Of a stretch of 64,000 nt of DNA, positions 351 through 12,516 are shown piece after piece. The DNA is taken from the NCBI RefSeq assembly GCF_017355785.1, contig NZ_JAFEWE010000004.1:434001-498000 (forward strand), written 5' to 3'. The stretch is from Desertivirga arenae (GTDB lineage: Bacteria > Bacteroidota > Bacteroidia > Sphingobacteriales > Sphingobacteriaceae). The notes under the pieces are model-generated. The model was not told where the DNA came from. It worked only from the letters and a program-made list of their open reading frames with translations, and did no database searches. How positions within the stretch are numbered: position 1 is the stretch's first letter; the number at the start of each line of letters is the position of its first letter. The translations under genes and the position numbers were made by a program.

Positions 351-899
351 TTAAAAAGGACTTACAAAGTCTTTAAAAGCGGGTAATAATTTATCTTTTT
401 CTGATAAAATAGCCTCTTCAGGCTTGATGCCCCAGTCTATATCCAAGTCAGTGTCATTCCAAATCACACCTATTTCGGAAGCTTTATCGTAAAGGTTAGT
501 GACCTTATAAGTGAATATCGTATTGTCTTCAAGAGTAACAAAGCCGTGTAGAAATCCCGGGGGGACCCAGAACATCCTAAAATTTTCTGCACTTAGCTCA
601 ATACTTACATGCTGGCCATAGGTTGGTGAATTTCTTCTGATATCCACAGCTACATCAATTACTTTTCCCTGAATAACCCGTACCAGTTTTCCCTGTGCGA
701 AAGGATCTGCTTGCCCGTGTAAACCTCTTAATGTGCCTTTTTGAGAGAACGACTGGTTATCCTGAACAAATTCTGCATGGATACCCGCGTCAGCAAAGAT
801 CTTCTTGTTGTAACTCTCGTAGAAATAGCCTCGGTCATCTTTCCAAACTTTGGGCTCAATAATTACTAATCCCTCAATTGCTGTTGGTATAATATTCAT
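351..899 (-). CDS. rfbC: dTDP-4-dehydrorhamnose 3,5-epimerase (RmlC/RfbC)
   Basis: This 182-residue cupin has the RmlC length and layout. It should convert dTDP-4-keto-6-deoxyglucose to dTDP-4-keto-L-rhamnose for surface polysaccharide. Visible marks are the RGYFYE segment near residue 23, GTLRGLH with the catalytic His61, the QGKLVRV strand, the WVPPGFLHGF turn near 111-120, and the tyrosine-rich YKVTNLY segment at 131-137. The usual RGLHYQ or RGLHFQ reads RGLHGQ here, an uncommon Gly beside the catalytic His. No other rml genes are adjacent. It ends a minus-strand run, two bases after the DUF4286 gene, so it is probably co-transcribed with it. Confidence 0.9.
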   Translation of the reverse strand: MNIIPTAIEGLVIIEPKVWKDDRGYFYESYNKKIFADAGIHAEFVQDNQSFSQKGTLRGLHGQADPFAQGKLVRVIQGKVIDVAVDIRRNSPTYGQHVSIELSAENFRMFWVPPGFLHGFVTLEDNTIFTYKVTNLYDKASEIGVIWNDTDLDIDWGIKPEEAILSEKDKLLPAFKDFVSPF

Positions 900-901
900 T
901 A

Positions 902-1204
902 TTAGTCGATAAATTCCATTAAAGTGGAAAAGGAAACAAACTTGTTAGTGAAGTGCAGTGCCTGCTTATCCATGAGCAAAGCGAATTGATTCTGCTGAAA
1001 AGATTGGTAAGAACCGATATCATCAAGAATAAATTGCAGACAATAAGTAACACCTTCATTGGGTGAATCAAGAACTTTTAGAAGGCGATTGGAAGCAATC
1101 AGATTGCTTGACATTGCTTCGGGAATAAATATTTCTTTAATCCACGATATCCACTCATCGTTTATACTGTCATCGATGATGACAGTAATATTAAACAAAA
1201 CCAT
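902..1204 (-). CDS. DUF4286 family small protein
   Basis: This 100-residue protein matches the Bacteroidetes DUF4286 family: an N-terminal beta strand with the NITVIIDDSINDEW pattern, a W-I-x-x-IFIPE helix, and a closing KFVSFSTLMEF strand. It looks like a small ferredoxin-like alpha/beta fold with no catalytic signature. Its function is unknown. It sits between a secreted TPR protein (27-base gap upstream) and rfbC (2-base gap), so the three genes are probably one transcript. In related genomes TPR and DUF4286 genes are often paired, so the link to rfbC may be incidental. Confidence 0.8.
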   Translation of the reverse strand: MVLFNITVIIDDSINDEWISWIKEIFIPEAMSSNLIASNRLLKVLDSPNEGVTYCLQFILDDIGSYQSFQQNQFALLMDKQALHFTNKFVSFSTLMEFID

Positions 1205-1231
1205 GCTGCGAAGATAAAGCTAAGATCCCTG

Positions 1232-3088
1232 TTAACCAATAGCATCACCTCTTAAGTTTCGGAAGCGCTTACGAGCTTCCGAAGCTAATATACTTCCTGG
1301 GAAGTCGGTAATTATTTTCTGATAGCATTGTTTCGCCTTCTCCTTATCCTGTAACTGGTTTTCGTAAATATCCCCCATCATAAACCACGCGTCGTCGGCC
1401 CAAAGATCAAAGCTATGGTTAACGGTAATAAGCTGCAATTGCTTTAGGGCCTCTTGGACTTCTTGTTGTTTCAAAAATATCTTTGCTTTGGTCATCAAGA
1501 TATCATCCTCGAGTGAGTTTCCCGGATACAACTTTTGAATGCTGTCTAAAACCACTAATGCCTCTTGGCTATCATTCTTAAAAGCAAGCAGGTCTGCATA
1601 AGCGAATTTCTTTAATGCATTTGTATCTGCTCCCGTTGCCGTATTTTCCTGAATTAGAAGGCTGAGGTTCAGAGCATCATTAGCTGTGAGTTGAGAGGTA
1701 GAACTTTTTAACACATCTAGCTGGGCTTTTGCCCAATTAAACTCTCCCTGGTAATAGGATAGTCTGGCTCCTTTGAACTTAGCTTCCTGCCCATTTGGTT
1801 CGTTAGGAAACTCCTTTTCTACCTGTCCATAAATGAGTGCTGCCTCCCATGGTTCATTATTTAAAACATAGACATCTCCAAGATCTAGCTTTACTAAAGC
1901 AACTAAGGCAGGAGGAAGTGCTGGCATTTTCAATGCATTTTCAAGGAGTTTTTCAGCGTCAACAAGTTTATGGAGATAAAAGGCCTGTAGGTTTGCCAAC
2001 TGCCTGATTGCAAAAATAGTATTATGGGTTTTCCCAAATTCCTCGATGAGGTCCTTATAGTCTTTCTCTAACTGTAAAAGATCGTCCTGAGTAAACTTTC
2101 CACTCGTCAATAGTTGGTTCTTGCAATTAAGTAACTGGATTTTCGCGGGTATATAGTATTGCTGCTCTTTGCCTTTTGAGACAAGGTAATTTAAAGCTTC
2201 TACCGCAGGCTCATAAGCTTTGCTGGCAATAAGGTTACCTGCAAATTCGTAAACCCTTTCACCCTCCTCTTTCTGACGTTTGTCTAAAGAGATAAGCTGT
2301 TTGAGTGCCAAGCTGTACTCTTTTTGCTGATAAAATAGCCAGGCAAGAAGATCAGGGTAAATGACATTTTGAGGTTCTTTCTGCATTTTTCGCAAAAGCG
2401 CTATCCTGAGCTGATCGTAATCCTCGGAACTCTCAAGAACTGCTGAAAAAGCGTTTTTCGCCTGATTTGCCATATTTGATTCTATGTCTGGAGAACTTAA
2501 AAGGCTTAAGTATTCCTGAATAAGCATCGGCTTATTTTTCTGGTAACGGTAGAGGGAAATCAAATCATAAGAAAAGATATTCTCGTCCTTAAGCAGCTTT
2601 CGGCCTTGTAATAATGCTTTAGTAGCATAGTCGTATGCTGTAGCGCGGTAGAAGGCAATAGAGATTTCACGGATAGCATGTTCATTTGGAGGAAGATCTT
2701 TTATAATATTGTTATACCACTCGTTGGCTTTAGCTTGTTGCCCCTGTTCTTGCAACACCCGTCCCAGGTCGATTTTGAAAGAGGGATTTTCTGGCATTTC
2801 TTTCACCATCTTTTTTACCACCTTCTCGGCATCATCATACCTTTTGATCTTGATTAAAGAGTTTAAGTATTGATCGTAGTAGAGAGCCGGATTAGAGGAT
2901 CTCGTAAAAAGTTTTTCATAGATTATAGCGGCCCGGTCATATTCAGCGTTCTGATAATACTGCAGAGCTAAAGCATCGTCGGCAGTTCGTTGAGCAGAAG
3001 CATTGAAATAATTGAGAACCAGCAATATTATCATTACTGAAGGAGAAAAAAACAATGTTTTTATATTAAAGGATCTCAAAATTCTCAT
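1232..3088 (-). CDS. Secreted tetratricopeptide-repeat protein
   Basis: The 618-residue protein has an N-terminal signal peptide: a hydrophobic stretch around residues 16-30 ending ASAQ. After it, nearly the whole protein is built of degenerate TPR helices, from YYQNAEYDRAAIIYEKL near residue 44 to the last repeat at 575-610 (DKEKAKQCYQKIITDFPGS). TPR arrays are scaffolds. In Bacteroidetes such periplasmic TPR proteins often serve outer-membrane assembly or gliding, but nothing here fixes a specific partner. It is the first gene of a minus-strand run with the DUF4286 gene and rfbC. Confidence 0.8.
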   Translation of the reverse strand: MRILRSFNIKTLFFSPSVMIILLVLNYFNASAQRTADDALALQYYQNAEYDRAAIIYEKLFTRSSNPALYYDQYLNSLIKIKRYDDAEKVVKKMVKEMPENPSFKIDLGRVLQEQGQQAKANEWYNNIIKDLPPNEHAIREISIAFYRATAYDYATKALLQGRKLLKDENIFSYDLISLYRYQKNKPMLIQEYLSLLSSPDIESNMANQAKNAFSAVLESSEDYDQLRIALLRKMQKEPQNVIYPDLLAWLFYQQKEYSLALKQLISLDKRQKEEGERVYEFAGNLIASKAYEPAVEALNYLVSKGKEQQYYIPAKIQLLNCKNQLLTSGKFTQDDLLQLEKDYKDLIEEFGKTHNTIFAIRQLANLQAFYLHKLVDAEKLLENALKMPALPPALVALVKLDLGDVYVLNNEPWEAALIYGQVEKEFPNEPNGQEAKFKGARLSYYQGEFNWAKAQLDVLKSSTSQLTANDALNLSLLIQENTATGADTNALKKFAYADLLAFKNDSQEALVVLDSIQKLYPGNSLEDDILMTKAKIFLKQQEVQEALKQLQLITVNHSFDLWADDAWFMMGDIYENQLQDKEKAKQCYQKIITDFPGSILASEARKRFRNLRGDAIG

Positions 3089-3264
3089 ATATGTAATAAA
3101 AGTACTATTACTTTTATTGTGAACGTAGATTTAAAGATAACGACATAAATGATGATTTATGCTTGAAAACATTACATTACTTGTATTCTAAATGTTACGT
3201 GTGACTGGTTACAAAACGAATAATTTAGTAATTCCAAATTTGAAGAATGAGGGGAAATAATTTT

Positions 3265-5151
3265 ATGCTGCGACATTTTGGTATCTGTTTGTTGTTAATG
3301 GTGTTAGGTCTGTTCACTCATTGCAAGCAGGAGACGGTTGCTCGTAAAATTCCCCTTGAGGATTTTTTTAGAAATCCCGAAAAAACCAATTTTCAACTTT
3401 CTCCCGACGGTCAGCAGATAGCTTATTTAAAGCCCTACAAGAACAGATTGAATATATTTGTTCAGGACGTAAGGGGAAAAAATGTTAGGCAACTCACTAA
3501 TTTAACCGACAGAAATGTGGGCTTTTATTGCTGGGCCAACAATTCATCATTACTCTTTTCGCCCGATAGCCGGTCTGGCGCCTTTTTGTATTCTGTAGAC
3601 AAGGAAGGAAAGGCAGTAAAGGAATTATTTGCAGATGAAAAGTTAAATATTAAGCTTATTAACTGGAGGAATATTGTAAGTAATGAGTTAGTACTCGGCC
3701 TTAATAAACGGGACTCAACTGTTTTTGATGCTTATAAACTAAATTTGAGTTCTGGTGCACTCAAACTATTGGAAGTTAATCCAGGCAATATTTTCCAGTG
3801 GTTTACAGATGGAGAAGGAAATATCAGAATGGCTCTAGCCAGTGATGGAGTGAATGAAACCCTGCTTTTTCGCGAGTATTCTGATTCCCCATTTAAGCCA
3901 GTTGTTACTAATAATTTTAAGACGAAAATCAAGCCTGTTGCTTTTTGTGACAACGATCGAACCTGTATATATGCTATAACGAACATTAAAAGGGATAGAT
4001 CTGCACTAGTGCAATTTGATTGCTCGCTAGGGAAGGAAACCAAAGAATTATATAGTCATGCGGACGTGGATGTTAACGACGCTGAATATTCTTATAAAAA
4101 AAGAAAATTGATTTCTGTGGGTTATGAAACCTGGAAAAGGGAAAGGTATTATCTAGATAACGCTGCCAGCTCAATTTACAAAGAGCTTCAAAAGCTGCTA
4201 CCCAATACCGAAACTATTATTGCTGATCAGGATACGGCAGGGTCGAAGCTGGTGATAAGAACTTTTACAGACCGGACTCAAGGTGCATACTATTTATATG
4301 AGCCATCCGCCAAAAAATTAAATAAACTAACAGAGATCAATCCTTCGATTAAGGCCGAGGAGATGTGTCAAATGCAGGCCATATCATTCAGGAACCGTGA
4401 GGGAAATATAATAAGGGGATATCTTACTCTGCCTTTACGAAAGGACCCTGTAAACCTTCCTGTAATAGTTATTCCTCATGGTGGCCCCACTGATCGTAAT
4501 TCCTGGGGATATAGCTCTGAGATTCAATTTTTGGCTAATCGTGGTTTTGCAGTTTTTCAACTTAATTTCCGCGGATCAGGAGGGTATGGAAAGCAATTCT
4601 GGATCTCAGGTTTTAAGAAATGGGGAACTTTGGTGCAGGATGATATCACTGATGGTGTTCAGTGGCTTATTAAAGAAGGTATTGCAGACTCAAAAAGAGT
4701 GGGCATTTATGGGGCAGGGTTTGGGGGATTCAGTGCCTTGAACGGATTAGCACGGCATCCAGATCTTTATGCTTGCGGAGCCGCTCAGTCGGGCTATATC
4801 AACTTATTCACCTATCTTAAGGCTGTACCTCCATATTATAAACCGACTCTTCAAATGTACTATGAAATGATTGGTAATCCGGAGACTGATATTGATTATT
4901 TAAGAGAAGCTTCGCCAGTTTTTCATGCAGATAAAATCAAGGCTCCAGTATTTATAGCACAGGACTCGAAAGACCCGCGGGTAAAAGTGAATGAAACTAA
5001 TCAGTTTGTTAAAGAACTTCGCAAAAGGAATATTCCGGTAACCTATCTTGTAAAGGAAACCGAAAAGTATACGTTGCGTAACCCGGAAAACCGATATGAG
5101 TATTACACCAAGCTTGAGAGGTTTTTTGAGAAATACCTTTCTAATAAGTAA
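3265..5151 (+). CDS. S9 prolyl-oligopeptidase-like lipoprotein lacking catalytic Ser and His
   Basis: The protein has a lipoprotein signal (hydrophobic segment then THC, Cys20), a beta-propeller-like N-terminal half and an S9-type alpha/beta hydrolase half starting near residue 380. The oxyanion region HGGPTDRNSWG and the FRGSGGYG segment are intact. The nucleophile elbow, normally G-G-S-Y-G-G, reads G-A-G-F-G-G, so the Ser is Gly485 (codon GGG at 4717). The acid Asp570 is kept in KDPRV. The family's N-E-G-H is T-E-K-Y, so the catalytic His is Tyr602. It should therefore not hydrolyse peptides (inference). I chose the ATG at 3265 because GAGGGG lies 11 bases upstream; an in-frame ATG at 3247 lacks a spaced site. 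The histidine kinase starts 6 bases after the stop, suggesting a sensing or accessory role. Confidence 0.85.
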   Translation: MLRHFGICLLLMVLGLFTHCKQETVARKIPLEDFFRNPEKTNFQLSPDGQQIAYLKPYKNRLNIFVQDVRGKNVRQLTNLTDRNVGFYCWANNSSLLFSPDSRSGAFLYSVDKEGKAVKELFADEKLNIKLINWRNIVSNELVLGLNKRDSTVFDAYKLNLSSGALKLLEVNPGNIFQWFTDGEGNIRMALASDGVNETLLFREYSDSPFKPVVTNNFKTKIKPVAFCDNDRTCIYAITNIKRDRSALVQFDCSLGKETKELYSHADVDVNDAEYSYKKRKLISVGYETWKRERYYLDNAASSIYKELQKLLPNTETIIADQDTAGSKLVIRTFTDRTQGAYYLYEPSAKKLNKLTEINPSIKAEEMCQMQAISFRNREGNIIRGYLTLPLRKDPVNLPVIVIPHGGPTDRNSWGYSSEIQFLANRGFAVFQLNFRGSGGYGKQFWISGFKKWGTLVQDDITDGVQWLIKEGIADSKRVGIYGAGFGGFSALNGLARHPDLYACGAAQSGYINLFTYLKAVPPYYKPTLQMYYEMIGNPETDIDYLREASPVFHADKIKAPVFIAQDSKDPRVKVNETNQFVKELRKRNIPVTYLVKETEKYTLRNPENRYEYYTKLERFFEKYLSNK

Positions 5152-5157
5152 AAGGAT

Positions 5158-6831
5158 ATGATTATCAGGAAGTTCTCCGGGAAAAAGAACTTTGTTCTCA
5201 ATGTTGTATTTCTTGTACTTATTGCCGCCTCCCTGGTAGCTGCTCTAACTATTGCCTATAATTTTACTTCTAGATATGTGTACGACGAGTTTGAGAAAAA
5301 AAAGACGGAAGTTGTAGATGAAACGATAAGACCATATAACGATTTTTTCCAGAATAAAATTCCCGAGATCTCACTTTACCAGGGATATCTGGATCCTTCT
5401 TCTGCCCTGAAGTTTTCTAAAACTGTGCTCAAGCAATTTCCTTTCGTTAGTCGTGTTATTTTTTATGATACAGAGGTTAGTAATCATAAAACGGAGTATG
5501 CCTTTAGAGTCAACAATCTTACCATTGCACCGAAGTCAATTGCCCAATTCTATAGAAAGCAGCCTGATGACTCTGTCTTATTATATAATATTAATAGTGG
5601 TGGCAGACCCATTAAATATATAAATGAGTTCAATCGCGTATCAGTTAAGCTTGCTGCTTTCCTGCAGAGTTTTGAATTAAGTAAGAGTACCTTGTCTGAT
5701 GAGTCGCTTGGAACTTTCTATAATGTAACAAATAATCGTGTTACGTTTATGAATATCCCTAGGGAAGAAGAGATCAAGGCATTCAAACAGCTAATGGATG
5801 ATAACCTTAAAAAATCGCCTGTTTATCAGCAGGACGTTTTATCCTTTTTGCTTGATCCAGCTAAACTTCGGATTAAAAATATTCATCCGCATTTCTATCA
5901 GAAAATTGCCATTATCCCGCTGACAGCTGATATTATCGATATTGAACCGGAACAAGTTTCCACTGAGTTTCCTTTAACCGGAGCTTTCAGTAGCTATAAG
6001 CTTCATTTTACTTCTTCCTCCGATTTCCTTTCAGATGAGATACTTCGTCGCTTTTTTCCTCTTGCTGTAGCAATTTTGATGGTTTATGGCGTGATACTGA
6101 CTATTGGTTTTCTTATTTACAGGAATTTGAATATCAATAATAAGTTATTCAAGCTTCAATATGATTTTGTCAACAATTTAACTCATGAGTTTAAGACGCC
6201 CGTAAGTGTTATTAAAATCGCTGGAAATAATATCAGGAGAGCTACTCAGTTGACTGATAGAGAGCGCTTGCATTACGGGAAAATTTTGGACGAAGAGGCA
6301 GATAAATTGAACGATCTAATGAATAAGCTGTTATCGTTCACCCAGATAGAGAACCAGGCCATTAAGGTAAAGCGAGAGAATATTAATCTTGAGGTTTTTG
6401 TGCAAAATATGGTGGATACTTACAATATTAAGTATAAAGACTTTCAGATGGAGTATACTATCCGTAATGTGGAACATTTTTATACAGATCCGGTACTTCT
6501 AGGTAGTCTTTTCCAGAATTTGATGGATAATGCGTATAAGTACTCACTTCCGGGAAAAAAGGAGTTGGTTATTGATATAGCTCATGAAAAAACAGATATT
6601 GTTTTCAGATTTTCTGATAAGGGCATTGGAATTCCTAAGGATGAGATGAAGAACATCTTTAAGAAATTTTATCGTATCCAGAGTGAGTATAACCAACAGG
6701 GAAGTGTGGGTTTAGGACTTGCATTTTGTAAGGAGCTTGTGAACTTTATGGAAGGAGATATTGCAGTAAGAAGCAGATTAGGGCAGGGTTCTGAGTTCAC
6801 TATAACGCTCCCATATAATTATGCAGGGTAG
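5158..6831 (+). CDS. Membrane sensor histidine kinase
   Basis: The protein has 557 residues. TM1 spans about residues 13-37 and TM2 about 297-322, enclosing a periplasmic sensor region of roughly 260 residues that I do not recognise. A HisKA domain follows, with phospho-acceptor His343 in NLTHEFKTPVSV. The HATPase_c domain has the N box NLMDNAYKYS, the G1 box DKGIGIP, and the G2 segment GSVGLGL. No HAMP linker is evident. AAAAGGAT precedes the ATG. It lies between the catalytically dead S9 lipoprotein (6-base gap) and the response regulator (73-base gap), so it is probably an operon in which the lipoprotein may present a ligand to the sensor domain. Confidence 0.93.
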   Translation: MIIRKFSGKKNFVLNVVFLVLIAASLVAALTIAYNFTSRYVYDEFEKKKTEVVDETIRPYNDFFQNKIPEISLYQGYLDPSSALKFSKTVLKQFPFVSRVIFYDTEVSNHKTEYAFRVNNLTIAPKSIAQFYRKQPDDSVLLYNINSGGRPIKYINEFNRVSVKLAAFLQSFELSKSTLSDESLGTFYNVTNNRVTFMNIPREEEIKAFKQLMDDNLKKSPVYQQDVLSFLLDPAKLRIKNIHPHFYQKIAIIPLTADIIDIEPEQVSTEFPLTGAFSSYKLHFTSSSDFLSDEILRRFFPLAVAILMVYGVILTIGFLIYRNLNINNKLFKLQYDFVNNLTHEFKTPVSVIKIAGNNIRRATQLTDRERLHYGKILDEEADKLNDLMNKLLSFTQIENQAIKVKRENINLEVFVQNMVDTYNIKYKDFQMEYTIRNVEHFYTDPVLLGSLFQNLMDNAYKYSLPGKKELVIDIAHEKTDIVFRFSDKGIGIPKDEMKNIFKKFYRIQSEYNQQGSVGLGLAFCKELVNFMEGDIAVRSRLGQGSEFTITLPYNYAG

Positions 6832-6871
6832 GTTTATTATCAATTATAAAAGGATTTAGGACAAAAATCAG

Positions 6872-6889
6872 GTTAATAGTCTGATTAAC
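6872..6889 (+). promoter_or_regulatory. Inverted repeat upstream of the response regulator gene
   Basis: GTTAAT (6872-6877) and ATTAAC (6884-6889) flank six bases and lie 15 bases before the response-regulator ATG. The outer bases AATCAG/CTGATT form a second overlapping inverted repeat. This could be an autoregulatory site, but it is short and AT-rich and may be chance. Confidence 0.3.
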
Positions 6890-6904
6890 ATTAAATAGAC
6901 TCGA

Positions 6905-7591
6905 ATGAAAAAGGAAATTAAAATAGCAATAATAGAAGATGATGACAATTTACGCTTCTTAGTAGCTCATAGATTAGAATCGGAGGGTTTTACTGTAGTG
7001 GAAGCAACCAATGGAGACGAGGGCGAGCAATTGATCTTAAGTGAGAGGCCCGATATTGTGTTGTTAGACTGGATGCTGCCTGGAAAGCAGGGCAATCAGG
7101 TATGTAAGGATGTGAGAGCGAAGGGGTTTGAAAATGTTATCATTATGATGACAGCGAAGGCTCAGGATGTTGACAAGATCGATGCTTACAGTTCAGGTGT
7201 TACTGATTATGTAACAAAGCCTTTTAACATGGATGTGCTTATCGCTCTTATTGAAAACAAAGTAAAGTTTGTGATTTTGAATGAGAAAACTGAGGCTTAC
7301 AAGTTTGCCAATATGGAGCATTTTCCAAATACGCACTCCCTTGTTAAAGATGGTAAGAAAATAGAGCTGACAATTCTTGAAAACCGAATATTATTGTATT
7401 TCCTGAAGAACCAGAATAAGGTAATTCATAGGGATGAATTGATGATGGTAGTTTGGGGATATAATTCTGATGTAAATACCCGCACCTTAGATATGCATAT
7501 TGTGCGCTTACGGAAAAAGATAGAAGCTAATCCGGATATGCCGCAATTGCTGCAAACTGTGAGAGGTATTGGCTACAAGTTTGTAAGCTAG
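6905..7591 (+). CDS. OmpR/PhoB-type response regulator
   Basis: The 228-residue protein has a receiver domain (about 1-120) and a winged-helix DNA-binding domain (about 130-228). The acidic pocket EDDD is at 11-14, the phospho-acceptor is Asp55 in LLDWMLPG, the switch Thr is in MMTAKA, and the conserved Lys is in VTKPF. The C-terminal domain has the RTLDMHIVRLRKKI recognition helix and a final RGIGYKF hairpin, as in OmpR-like regulators. Together with the preceding histidine kinase it forms a two-component system; the regulon is unknown. It ends 12 bases from the convergent UbiA-like gene. Confidence 0.95.
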   Translation: MKKEIKIAIIEDDDNLRFLVAHRLESEGFTVVEATNGDEGEQLILSERPDIVLLDWMLPGKQGNQVCKDVRAKGFENVIIMMTAKAQDVDKIDAYSSGVTDYVTKPFNMDVLIALIENKVKFVILNEKTEAYKFANMEHFPNTHSLVKDGKKIELTILENRILLYFLKNQNKVIHRDELMMVVWGYNSDVNTRTLDMHIVRLRKKIEANPDMPQLLQTVRGIGYKFVS

Positions 7592-7603: not shown

Positions 7604-8542
7604 CTAAGCTGAGTATAAGTTCAAGAGATAATTGCTTAAGACAACTGCGACTAGTTGAAGAATCATGGTTCCATCAAGATATAGAAAATAGTAGTATTCA
7701 TTTTTCTTAATATTTGATTTAAAAATTAGCCAGCCAGTAAGAATGATGGTTAAAGAGATCCCTATAAAATCAGCATCTACTGTTTTAGTGAATAAAAGCA
7801 AGAGGCTTATATAGATCAGTAATAAGAATTGACAGAACAAGTAAGCCTTTTTTTCACCTAACATTACCGGAATGGTCTTTAGGTCGTAACTTTTGTCCTG
7901 ATATAAATCTCGTATATCAAAGGGAACTGTAATTGCAGCGATAAAAAGAAAACGTTTTGCGATTAGCACAATAGTATCACTTGTGCGGACGGGCATGCCT
8001 GTTTCAATTATTGGAACTAATACACAACTAAGAGACCAGATCAGAGCAATAAGGAAAAGCTTTAGTCCTGGAATATTCCGCAATCCAAACTTCTTATCGT
8101 TCATGGTGAACAGTGGAAGATTATATGCTACTGCAATTACTCCCAGGAAGAACATAAGAACCTGTGAGGCTGGAGATAGAAAAAAAGCGAGGGGAATTAT
8201 AGAAATAACAGCGATAAGGGTAATCGTTGTCATGAAGCGGTAATTGGCAAATATCCATCTTACACGCCGAAACTTTGACTTCTCCGGGTGCTTAGGCTTA
8301 GACAGAAACATACTGAAATTGTATAAAGACAAGGTGGAACAGAACAGGAGTCCTAATACATACTTGTCACAAGTCGCTCGAAGTAGATGATAAGTTAAAG
8401 AAGCTTGAGCCACAGCACATAAGGCAATAAATATATTGCTGAAAAGAAGAAAATCCAGAATGTGCCTAATGTTAGTTTTGAGGTAAGATGATTGTTCGGG
8501 GTCGGGCATCTGCAAACTGTTGTTTACAAGCGGCTTAAGCAC
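7604..8542 (-). CDS. UbiA prenyltransferase-like integral membrane protein
   Basis: The 312-residue protein has about eight or nine hydrophobic helices and the overall UbiA pattern. The second Asp-rich motif of the superfamily is recognisable in DIRDLYQDKSYDLKTIP (near residues 200-218). The first motif, normally NDxxDxxxD, reads NFSMFLSK from Asn75 and has no Asp, so magnesium-diphosphate binding may be altered or lost. It may act on an isoprenoid or lipid-linked substrate, which is not identifiable from the sequence. The start overlaps the end of the metallophosphoesterase gene by 8 bases, which indicates translational coupling. Confidence 0.7.
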   Translation of the reverse strand: MLKPLVNNSLQMPDPEQSSYLKTNIRHILDFLLFSNIFIALCAVAQASLTYHLLRATCDKYVLGLLFCSTLSLYNFSMFLSKPKHPEKSKFRRVRWIFANYRFMTTITLIAVISIIPLAFFLSPASQVLMFFLGVIAVAYNLPLFTMNDKKFGLRNIPGLKLFLIALIWSLSCVLVPIIETGMPVRTSDTIVLIAKRFLFIAAITVPFDIRDLYQDKSYDLKTIPVMLGEKKAYLFCQFLLLIYISLLLLFTKTVDADFIGISLTIILTGWLIFKSNIKKNEYYYFLYLDGTMILQLVAVVLSNYLLNLYSA

Positions 8543-9800
8543 GCTTTAACTCAAATATCGTAATTTCTGGTAAAATTCCAACTCTGCCAGGATAACCAAG
8601 GAATCCATAACCCACGTTTACATAAAGTTGCTGGTTGCTTTCATGATAAAAGCCTGCCCACTCTTTATAGATATACTGCACTGGGCTCCATTGAAATTCT
8701 TCCGTCCGTACGCCGAACTGCATGCCATGAGTATGGCCGCTAAACATAGCATTGATATCAGGATAGTTAAGTACATGTGCTCGCCAATGAGTTGGATCAT
8801 GCGACAGCAGCAACTTTACTTCCTTATCCTCGGTACCAGTTAAGGCTTTATTCAGGTCTGCTTTTTTGGGGAAACGAGAACCCGCTCCCCAGTTTTCCAC
8901 CCCTACAATAGCTAATTCTTCTCCATCAACCTTCAAAGAAGTATTCTCGTTCATGAGAATATTCCAACCCATGTTTTTATGGGTTTGAATCAGATCGGAA
9001 AGATTTTTTTCTTTGGCAGGACTTGGGTAGGGGCCAAAATGATAGTCTCCGTAATCGTGGTTTCCCAAAACTGAATACACCCCCAATGGAGCTTTTACCT
9101 TCGCAAATATGTCCTGATAATTCCGCATTTCGGAAGCTTGTCCGTTCACCAGATCGCCGGTAAAAAAGATGAAGTCAGGTTTTTCCCCAAGCAGGGTTTC
9201 AACACCTCCAAGAACTGCTTTGTGATTGTAGAAGCTCCCTGAATGAACATCGGAGATCTGGGCTAATTTGATTCCATCAAATGCCTTTGGGAGGTTTTTA
9301 AGGTAAAGAGTCCTCCGTTTTACCTGATAATCATACGCCCCTGAAACAATACCCCAACTTAAAGTTGCAAAGGGAATAGTAGCAACAGCGAGTCCTGCTT
9401 TTAGAATAAATTCTGAACGAGAAATTTTATCGGTCGTGATCTCTGGTTCTACCGACTGTGCCTGCTCTTGCAACGCTTCATTCCGCTTTCTTTTTGAAAG
9501 GAAAAACCTTCTTATGTCATCGATGAATATAAAAGGCAGGTAACAAACTTTTGAAACAAAAGATAGGACAAAAGCAACCATAGTTACGGCCCTGAAGCTT
9601 AACCGAAGATTGAGGTAGATACTTGCAAAAACTCCTGAGATCAGGAGTAATGAATATCCCCAGTATATCCACTTAAATCGTCTGGTTTTTGTTGAGGTCT
9701 CATCTTTGCTTAATGTTAACAGAGCTTTATAGATATAGAGATCTATTAATAATAGTATTATAGTAATGAGTAGTAGAAGAGGAAGCCTGTTTGCCATCAA
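8535..9800 (-). CDS. Membrane-anchored metallophosphoesterase
   Basis: The protein has 421 residues. The N-terminal quarter has three hydrophobic helices (about 5-28, 45-67 and 70-95), then a charged stretch and a fourth hydrophobic helix around 135-155. The C-terminal two thirds is a calcineurin-like phosphoesterase with all metal motifs: DVHSGS, GDLVN, GNHDY, SHDP and GHTHGMQFG. The layout resembles YkuE/YaeI-type enzymes, some of which act on lipid-linked substrates. The true substrate is unknown. It overlaps the UbiA-like gene by 8 bases. Confidence 0.88.
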   Translation of the reverse strand: MMANRLPLLLLITIILLLIDLYIYKALLTLSKDETSTKTRRFKWIYWGYSLLLISGVFASIYLNLRLSFRAVTMVAFVLSFVSKVCYLPFIFIDDIRRFFLSKRKRNEALQEQAQSVEPEITTDKISRSEFILKAGLAVATIPFATLSWGIVSGAYDYQVKRRTLYLKNLPKAFDGIKLAQISDVHSGSFYNHKAVLGGVETLLGEKPDFIFFTGDLVNGQASEMRNYQDIFAKVKAPLGVYSVLGNHDYGDYHFGPYPSPAKEKNLSDLIQTHKNMGWNILMNENTSLKVDGEELAIVGVENWGAGSRFPKKADLNKALTGTEDKEVKLLLSHDPTHWRAHVLNYPDINAMFSGHTHGMQFGVRTEEFQWSPVQYIYKEWAGFYHESNQQLYVNVGYGFLGYPGRVGILPEITIFELKRA

Positions 9801-9848
9801 TGTTATCCGAAATTTTCCTTGTACGAAAGATTTAAGACTAAGGTTAAG

Positions 9849-11360
9849 TTAATATCGTCCTTTGTCATCGTAATCCTCGTCTTCGTCATCCTCGAAGCTG
9901 GCATTGAATAAGCTGCCCAACATATCTTTAAACTCGAATCCATTGTCCAGAAGCGATTTACCTATCTGTGAAAATTCAGCCAACCCATGCAGTAAAAATT
10001 CCATTAAAAGTAAGTTTTGTGCATCACTAAGACGTGGATGAAATTTCTTTACTACATTTTTAAGCCCCGGTACAGAATGAAGGATATCGTAATATTCTTC
10101 CTCAGATAGATCGTCTGGCATGTTCAGATTATTCCCCCCTCCGAACCAATTAACTATATCAGCATAAGGATTATCTGTTTTAGACCGCTTAATTTTTTCA
10201 GGATCAGGGAAGAAACGGATCATAAGAGTTTTTATCGCCTTACCCACCAGGATGTTAGCCACTTTGGCTGGGCCTTCCTGTTCTCCCTCGTATACTAATT
10301 CAATTTTACCCGTTATGGCCGGAATTACCCCCAGGAAGTCTGCGATCCTTACAGCAGTCTTAGCTTCGCCGTTAAGCAACATACGTCTTTCTGCATGACT
10401 AATGAGGTTTTCATAAGCAGAGATGGTTAGTCGAGCCGACACCCCCGACTTCTTGTCTATGTATTCTGAATTACGAGCTTCGAATGCAATTTGTTCAATC
10501 AAGTCCTTTACTAATCCGTCCGCCTCAACAGCCGACCGCTGAGCTTCTGTTAGCTGAGCTTCCTGCTGAGTGATTTTTCTTGAAATTTCTAAGCTTTTTG
10601 GGTAATGCGTTAAAATTTGACTTTCAATTCGGTCTTTTAGAGGAGTGACGATTGATCCACGGTTCGTATAATCTTCTGGATTGGCAGTAAACACAAACTG
10701 AACATCCAGTGGTAATCTAAGCTTGAAGCCCCTGATCTGAATATCCTTCTCCTGCAAAATGTTGAATAACGCTACTTGAATTCTCGCCTGAAGATCGGGA
10801 AGTTCGTTAATAACAAAAATACTTCTATGTGCCCTTGGAATAAGCCCGAAATGTAATACGCGTTCGTCAGAATAGGTAAGTTTCAGAGTTGCTGCTTTGA
10901 TGGGATCTACGTCTCCAATTAAATCTGCTACAGTAACATCAGGTGTCGCAAGCTTTTCTGTATACCTTTCAGAGCGATGCAACCAGGCAATTGGAGTGTC
11001 GTCTCCCTGTTCTTCCAATCGCTGGCGAGCAAACCAAGAGATTGGAGCAAATGGATCATCATAAAGTTCGGATCCTTGGACAAAGGGTATGTACTCATCC
11101 AATAAACTCACCATCAACCTTGCTATACGCGTTTTTGCCTGCCCCCTCAAGCCTAGTAAAAGAATATTATGTTGAGAAAGAATGGCAGTTTGTAAGTCGG
11201 GAATTACTGTATCCTCATAGCCTATGATTCCCTCAAAACCACTTTCTTTATTTTTGATCTGAGCAATAAGATTCTCTCTTAGTTCTTGCTTTATGGTTCT
11301 GGGTGTATAGCCCGATTGTTTTAATTCTCCAAAAGTTGTTATATCAAGTAAATTACTCAT
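9849..11360 (-). CDS. MoxR/ChlI-like AAA+ ATPase
   Basis: The 503-residue protein has a AAA+ core resembling magnesium-chelatase I subunits and MoxR proteins. Walker A is GLRGQAKT at 70-77. Walker B is FVINE at 182-186, with Asn in place of the usual Asp before the Glu. Sensor 1 lies in FVFTANPED, and an arginine-rich LKDRIES segment follows. The end is strongly acidic (SFEDDEDEDYDD). It lies just downstream of a VWA gene (55-base gap); MoxR-VWA pairs are known as chaperone-like complexes that insert metals or remodel partners. It is not a sigma-54 regulator despite frequent annotation: no DNA-binding helix is seen. Confidence 0.85.
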   Translation of the reverse strand: MSNLLDITTFGELKQSGYTPRTIKQELRENLIAQIKNKESGFEGIIGYEDTVIPDLQTAILSQHNILLLGLRGQAKTRIARLMVSLLDEYIPFVQGSELYDDPFAPISWFARQRLEEQGDDTPIAWLHRSERYTEKLATPDVTVADLIGDVDPIKAATLKLTYSDERVLHFGLIPRAHRSIFVINELPDLQARIQVALFNILQEKDIQIRGFKLRLPLDVQFVFTANPEDYTNRGSIVTPLKDRIESQILTHYPKSLEISRKITQQEAQLTEAQRSAVEADGLVKDLIEQIAFEARNSEYIDKKSGVSARLTISAYENLISHAERRMLLNGEAKTAVRIADFLGVIPAITGKIELVYEGEQEGPAKVANILVGKAIKTLMIRFFPDPEKIKRSKTDNPYADIVNWFGGGNNLNMPDDLSEEEYYDILHSVPGLKNVVKKFHPRLSDAQNLLLMEFLLHGLAEFSQIGKSLLDNGFEFKDMLGSLFNASFEDDEDEDYDDKGRY

Positions 11361-11415
11361 GCTTAATGTTGTTTATGTAGGCAATATTTAAGTTTAATAG
11401 CATTTTAGCTATTAT

Positions 11416-12516
11416 CTATCTTACTGTCCTACGTCTATTTTTTATATAGTCTTCAAAAATATATTCACCCAAGCCTTTAAGTGAGCTGTAGAAAGCTTTG
11501 CCTCCATTTATTTCGGTAAACTTCCTTACAAATTGCTGAAGGTAGGGATCTTTGGCAATCATGAAGGTGGTGATCGGAATTTTGAGCCTTTTACATTCTG
11601 CTGCCTTATTTAAAGTTTTGTTAACGACTTTTCGATCTAGCCCGATGCTGTTTTTATAGTAGCGGTTTCCCTCCTTTAAGCAGGTTGGCTTACCGTCTGT
11701 AATCATAAAGATCTGTTTATTGTGTGTTTTTCGGCGTCTCAGTATGTCTACGGCTAACTCTAGTCCCGCGTAAGTATTAGTATGGTATGGGCCTACTTGC
11801 AGGTAGGGAAGATCCTTTAAAAGGATGGGCCAGGCGTCATTACCAAAAACCACAATATCTAATGTATCCTTAGGGTACCTAGTCCGGATAAGTTCGGCCA
11901 AAGCCATGGCTACCTTTTTGGCAGGTGTAATTCGGTCTTCTCCGTAAAGAATCATGGAGTGAGAAATATCAATCATCAGGACGGTAGATGTGAGAGTTTT
12001 GAAGTCTTTCTCCTCAACCTCAAGGTCCTTCTCAGTCATTGTAAAGTCGCCGATACCATGATTGATCTGAGCATTATGAATAGATGCGGTCATGTCAATC
12101 TGATCAAGACTGTCCCCGAACTGAAATTCCCGTCTGTCTGCATTTTTTTCCTCACCCAAACCCGACAAGTTCGTATTATGACTTCCTTTGCCCGACTTTT
12201 TTAGTTTACCGAAAATTTCTTCTAATGCCGACTTTCTAATACTCTGTTCAGTCTTCCCTGTAATCTGAAAGCCGCCAGCATTATTATTATCGTCATCTAT
12301 ATAACCTTTTTGCTTCAACTCATCGATAAAGTCACCTATTCCATAATCATCTTGGGTAAGGTTATATTGCTTATCAAGCTCGTTCAGCCAGGCTAAAGCT
12401 TCATTAGCATCACCGGATGTATAGTTAAGTAATTCGAGGAATAGTTTTAATAATTCGTCAAATCCTCCTTTCGGGATATCACTCGGAAGGAACTGAGAAA
12501 ATGAATAACCCCGCAT
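11416..12516 (-). CDS. VWA-domain protein, partner of the AAA+ ATPase
   Basis: The 366-residue protein has a von Willebrand A domain from about residue 175 to 355. The MIDAS metal site is complete: D-I-S-H-S at 183-187, threonines in HTNTYAG near 246-248, and TDGKP at 273-277. The N-terminal half is charged, with Asp/Asn-rich linkers, and shows no signal peptide, so it is cytoplasmic. It is the first gene of the pair with the AAA+ ATPase. By analogy to ChlI/ChlD and MoxR/VWA systems the two likely act as one complex (inference); the client is unknown. Confidence 0.85.
   Translation of the reverse strand: MRGYSFSQFLPSDIPKGGFDELLKLFLELLNYTSGDANEALAWLNELDKQYNLTQDDYGIGDFIDELKQKGYIDDDNNNAGGFQITGKTEQSIRKSALEEIFGKLKKSGKGSHNTNLSGLGEEKNADRREFQFGDSLDQIDMTASIHNAQINHGIGDFTMTEKDLEVEEKDFKTLTSTVLMIDISHSMILYGEDRITPAKKVAMALAELIRTRYPKDTLDIVVFGNDAWPILLKDLPYLQVGPYHTNTYAGLELAVDILRRRKTHNKQIFMITDGKPTCLKEGNRYYKNSIGLDRKVVNKTLNKAAECKRLKIPITTFMIAKDPYLQQFVRKFTEINGGKAFYSSLKGLGEYIFEDYIKNRRRTVR

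Follow-up and report, generated by a model that had tools for sequence, protein, structure and literature searches.

The window (the whole stretch of 64,000 nucleotides of DNA that was analysed) encodes a lipoprotein of the S9 peptidase family that is, judged by its residues, a pseudoenzyme, and its gene stands directly in front of those for a histidine kinase and a response regulator. We lean, by a modest measure, towards reading this protein as a lipid-anchored accessory subunit or co-receptor that serves the downstream kinase without catalysis; it is probably maintained as a sensor partner rather than as an enzyme. The wider proposal, which we put forward tentatively and at somewhat less than an even chance, is that the three genes form a family-wide module in which the S9 scaffold serves as the co-receptor of a kinase whose sensor domain is undescribed, the propeller provides the contact, and a dispensable catalytic site has been discarded in at least 10 lineages.

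The S9 gene lies at 3265..5151 on the forward strand and encodes 628 aa; an in-frame ATG at 3247 is a second possible start. Its annotation as an S9C/acylaminoacyl-peptidase-like pseudopeptidase lipoprotein draws on the ORF, Pfam, the PDB match, the lipobox, and Foldseek. The signal peptide carries a lipobox, LFTHC, after an N-terminal hydrophobic stretch, and its Cys20 is invariant across 56 orthologues; a beta-propeller (residues ~30-372) and an alpha/beta-hydrolase domain (~373-628) follow. The protein matches the Pfam family Peptidase_S9 (PF00326) with an E value of 2e-41, its best sequence match is the acylaminoacyl peptidase PDB 5l8s (residues 30-624, E 2e-41), and a model including the S9 protein retrieved S9 structures as its top matches, with 5l8s the best (Foldseek E 4e-28). 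By fold and descent the protein belongs to the S9 prolyl oligopeptidase family, having the PF00326 domain together with an N-terminal beta-propeller. When it is aligned with S9 enzymes, the Ser, Asp, and His columns hold Gly485 (in YGAGFGG; codon at 4717..4719, forward strand), Asp570 (in KDPRV; 4972..4974, forward strand), and Tyr602 (in ETEKYTLR; 5068..5070, forward strand), i.e., the catalytic triad is incomplete. The ORFs, Pfam, and the alignment confirm the initial annotation's description of an S9 lipoprotein with these three residues that ends 6 nt before a kinase. Although 5l8s is the closest protein in both sequence and structure, it is an enzyme and retains Ser and His; in the window protein, a lipoprotein encoded in a signalling operon, Gly and Tyr take their places. 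The genome contains about 20 PF00326 matches, the S9 protein of the operon being one of several, and the triad is retained in the S9 paralogues that do not adjoin the kinase.

The kinase gene (5158..6831, forward strand) begins 6 nt after the S9 stop and encodes 557 aa with HisKA and HATPase_c domains (Pfam) and TM helices at residues 12-30 and 302-320. It is followed by an OmpR/PhoB-type response regulator (6905..7591, forward strand; Response_reg and Trans_reg_C by Pfam) with an invariant phospho-acceptor, Asp55. The H343, N458, D487/G489, and G518/G520 boxes of the kinase and D55 of the regulator are essentially invariant across the family, as is canonical for a two-component system. Residues 32-300 of the kinase (5251..6057, forward strand) make up a periplasmic sensor domain, for which searches against Pfam families and PDB sequences returned no match. 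The model of this domain is weakly double-Cache/PDC-like: its top Foldseek matches were double-Cache ectodomains at a non-significant E of 0.05, and the model was made from four sequences with a pLDDT of 66.6. All structure models came from shallow alignments of the window and three related loci. An S9-kinase fusion, modelled by reading through the stop, gave a poor pTM of 0.34 and, being forced, is uninformative on a complex. With a length of about 270 residues and no Pfam model, the sensor domain is apparently confined to the window's family.

In this family, 387 of 401 genomes have a match to the S9 protein at E<=1e-100, a few of the matches possibly being paralogues. In a 119-genome sample of the class that was searched with the kinase, matches outside the family covered the catalytic half only, while full-length matches that include the sensor domain occurred in the family only. 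The kinase lies directly 3' of the S9 gene, on the same strand, in 150 of the 150 orthologous loci read, with a median gap of 6 nt and -4 (ATGA-type) overlaps in 8 loci, and the regulator comes next in 148. Since every one of these 150 loci shows this gene order, it is not due to chance, and the proposed tie of the S9 protein to the kinase holds family-wide. The outer neighbours (a TPR protein, UbiA-like, phosphoesterase, and MoxR/VWA genes) vary, while the S9-kinase-regulator triplet remains intact. In the genus g10 (L155-L159, reduced genomes of 1.7-2.0 Mb), the S9 gene has been cleanly deleted from its place between the kinase and TPR genes, and the kinase and regulator are in place. Since the g10 kinase nests beside S9-bearing lineages, this absence is a secondary loss, and the kinase can thus survive without the S9 protein.

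Rates of evolution were compared on a fixed tree of 54 taxa and 105 branches. The propeller and the kinase sensor domain covary (rho 0.55, partial 0.33, p=9e-4), at values near those of the positive control, in which the catalytic part of the kinase was set against the regulator (rho 0.48, partial 0.38), and the partial correlation of the hydrolase domain with the sensor is 0.04. The propeller rate also correlates positively with that of the unrelated neighbour DUF4286 (0.37, partial 0.28), and the propeller-sensor covariation is weak (0.31) in a 26-taxon set with more controls. We regard the covariation as supportive of a partnership without being proof of it. Relaxation of the sensor in the S9-less g10 (6/24 conserved sensor sites broken vs 8/100 in the kinase, p=0.03) was considered as further evidence for partnership and rejected, because the S9-bearing clades L079, L166/167, and L241 equal or exceed g10.

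As a co-receptor, the lipoprotein would engage the periplasmic sensor domain of the kinase through its propeller and would either carry a ligand or gate the kinase. The phosphorylated regulator would then bind an 11-bp direct repeat upstream and so control all three genes. An active peptidase that already belonged to this operon is the probable ancestor. On this reading the role at the kinase required no catalysis, and Ser was lost at least 10 times, with drift of His following later. Judged by residues, roughly one in five of the orthologues read still appears competent.

A conserved putative operator, GTATTCTAAATGTTAC, was found by de novo motif search at 3183..3198 (forward strand), 82 nt upstream of the S9 ATG. 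It has the form of a direct repeat, GTA-N8-GTKRC, with half-sites 11 bp apart. The motif scores above the 99.9th percentile of shuffles in 71 of 79 thinned operon upstream regions; GTA-N8-GTKRC itself is present in 74 of the 79, and G0, T1, A2, G11, T12, and C15 are nearly invariant among these 74 aligned sites. A palindromic reading of the motif was tried and rejected when single-strand alignment yielded a direct repeat. Two direct half-sites at 11-bp spacing are the layout of an OmpR/PhoB-type regulator site, and members of this class, ArcA among them, bind direct repeats with that spacing (PMC3798270). A weak candidate for a Bacteroidota -7 element, TAATTTAG, was picked out by inspection at 3221..3228 (forward strand), and -7-like elements lie 3' of the operator at variable spacing in many relatives. 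The exact operator has one match per genome in the window genome and two congeners (G000, G001, and G002). When it was used to seek a wider regulon, the exact site occurred at the operon only, and one-mismatch matches stayed near the level of a reversed-pattern control. Five S9-less loci that retain the divergent TPR gene have no such operator in front of the kinase; it therefore belongs to the S9-led operon. We infer that the operon is autoregulated through this site by its own regulator.

The operator also bears on the main rival explanation, which we judge unlikely, though the least so of the alternatives: that the S9 protein is an output, i.e., an envelope protein under two-component control (a scaffold, chaperone-like or, where intact, a peptidase), perhaps with CpxP-like feedback on the kinase. 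CpxP is a two-component-controlled periplasmic modulator of CpxA with a small helical fold. The S9 protein would resemble it as an extracytoplasmic protein controlled by the two-component system that it may modulate, but the CpxP fold is unrelated to S9. A putative regulator site that precedes the S9 gene, occurs once in each of three genomes, and vanishes together with the S9 gene in g10 is what such an output would have, and the kinase and regulator do persist without the S9 protein. However, the S9 gene is never without the kinase among the 150 orthologous loci, and the only exact operator fronts the operon itself, which makes autoregulation likelier than an output regulon. The covariation of propeller and sensor rates likewise speaks for a partner rather than an output.

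It is less probable still that the S9 gene is co-transcribed with the kinase by history and serves an unrelated non-catalytic function. The case for it is that the S9 gene alone was lost in g10 and that the S9-kinase interaction is putative. Against it stand the tight gaps and ATGA overlaps (30 nt or less in 145/150 loci), the co-retention of the genes in nearly the whole family, and, once more, the propeller-sensor covariation.

Returning to the co-receptor reading, the catalytic site varies among the orthologues. The Ser-Asp-His triad is intact in 33 of the 150, all beside the same kinase, which indicates that the association of S9 protein and kinase is older than the catalytic loss. The other 117 comprise 115 without Ser, one with Ser and without His (L195), and one broken copy (L163). 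In the 115, residue 485 is mostly Gly, otherwise Arg, Glu, or Asn. Every Ser codon is AGY (AGT/AGC), from which Gly, Arg, and Asn could each have arisen in a single step. His is kept in 33/34 orthologues with Ser vs 11/115 without it, which argues that loss of Ser came before a later drift of His. The initial annotation had read the two replacements as independent losses; they are better read as sequential. Parsimony on the tree gives 13-14 losses of the intact triad, or 10 with branches of <95 support collapsed, which makes at least 10 losses. Parsimony by itself cannot separate loss from gain; the intact outgroup and the implausibility of regaining a full triad favour loss. Intact and dead sisters occur side by side, as in L092 (SDH) and L093 (NDR), L049 (SDH) and L248 (GDH), or L175 (SDH) and L177 (RDH). 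L195, with Ser at 485 and Ala at the His position, is nested within a Gly/Ala clade, and its Ser appears to have arisen from Gly by back-mutation within a lineage that was already dead.

These 33 orthologues correct the earlier view in two respects. Catalytic loss is not a hallmark of the kinase-linked system, and orthologues that keep Ser and His beside the kinase, which had been named as counting against a dead binding protein, do exist; the pseudoenzyme status of the window protein stands, with the operon being older than the loss. The proposal is thus partly supported and corrected: the kinase-linked S9 lipoprotein is a family-wide protein that repeatedly turned pseudoenzyme, rather than a sensor of proline peptides fixed in a dead state.

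Selection on the dead copies bears on the suggestion that the protein senses peptides or proline-containing ligands for the kinase. A peptide-binding sensor that keeps the S1/active-site pocket for proline-containing ligands would agree with the retained fold and Asp570, but a pocket selected for binding should remain conserved, and 602 takes almost any residue in dead orthologues. The entropy at the His602 position is 0 in the intact set and 3.56 bits in the dead set, the largest shift among the 628 sites, and 508, 509, 545, 572, and 601 are also relaxed. Positions 508/509 are presumably at the active-site pocket, judging from their proximity in the sequence and from what is generally known of the fold. 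The drift of 602 and of active-site-side positions (508, 509, 572) argues against a retained peptide pocket, and we consider this explanation very improbable; the ligand part of the suggestion is weakened by the same drift, while a sensing role may still apply. Propeller positions 275, 305, and 323 are tighter in the dead than in the intact set.

Ordinary gene decay, for which the frameshifts that split the S9 gene beside an intact kinase in three genomes (L160, L163, and L164; true pseudogenes or assembly errors) could be cited, is barely credible given full-length ORFs in nearly all 150 loci and Nei-Gojobori dN/dS values for close pairs that are as low in dead copies (0.016-0.065, or ~0.02-0.07) as in intact ones (0.017-0.061) and similar in the kinase, as purifying selection predicts and as the initial annotation had supposed.

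Known systems offer partial parallels. DPP10 and DPP6 are inactive S9B peptidases that serve as ancillary subunits of Kv4 channels, with the catalytic Ser replaced by Gly in DPP10 and Asp in DPP6 (PMC4350108, PMC4873792). They share with the window protein an S9 propeller-hydrolase architecture, a replaced Ser, and, on the co-receptor reading, service to a membrane signalling partner. They differ in being eukaryotic type II membrane proteins of S9B with ion-channel partners, whereas the window protein is a bacterial, S9C-like lipoprotein with at least 10 losses among its orthologues and a putative kinase partner. Fly DPP10 is both a channel-binding ancillary subunit and an active peptidase, while human DPP10, with Gly in the Ser position, is inactive (PMC4873792, PMC4350108), a duality that parallels the mix of intact and dead S9 orthologues. 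In LuxP-LuxQ and HptA-HptS, a tandem-PDC kinase perceives its signal via a separate extracytoplasmic protein (PMC8534201). On the co-receptor reading, the window operon would likewise pair an extracytoplasmic candidate partner with a kinase, whose sensor is weakly predicted to have a PDC fold, but LuxP and HptA bind ligands and have folds other than the S9 peptidase scaffold. A literature search with most subscription journals outside its coverage found no case of a pseudoenzyme of peptidase origin encoded next to a histidine kinase.

Studies of how pseudoenzymes evolve usually have one or two losses to draw on, and one conserved operon here gives at least 10 independent ones. Since these stand next to intact sisters, the role of catalysis in the partner's job is directly testable. 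If the co-receptor reading is true, the orthologues would show a single receptor subunit in a series provided by nature, from the enzyme through half-lost forms to fully dead ones. The results also point to an uncharacterised, near-universal two-component system of the family, with a sensor domain that is named in no domain library.

The surroundings of the operon are also conserved across the family (window positions 351-3088 and 7604-12516). Divergent genes for rmlC, DUF4286, and a TPR protein lie upstream, and UbiA-like, metallophosphoesterase, MoxR, and VWA genes lie downstream. Of the triplet's neighbours, the DUF4286 gene (902-1204) is the most constant, being present in 58 of 62 loci.
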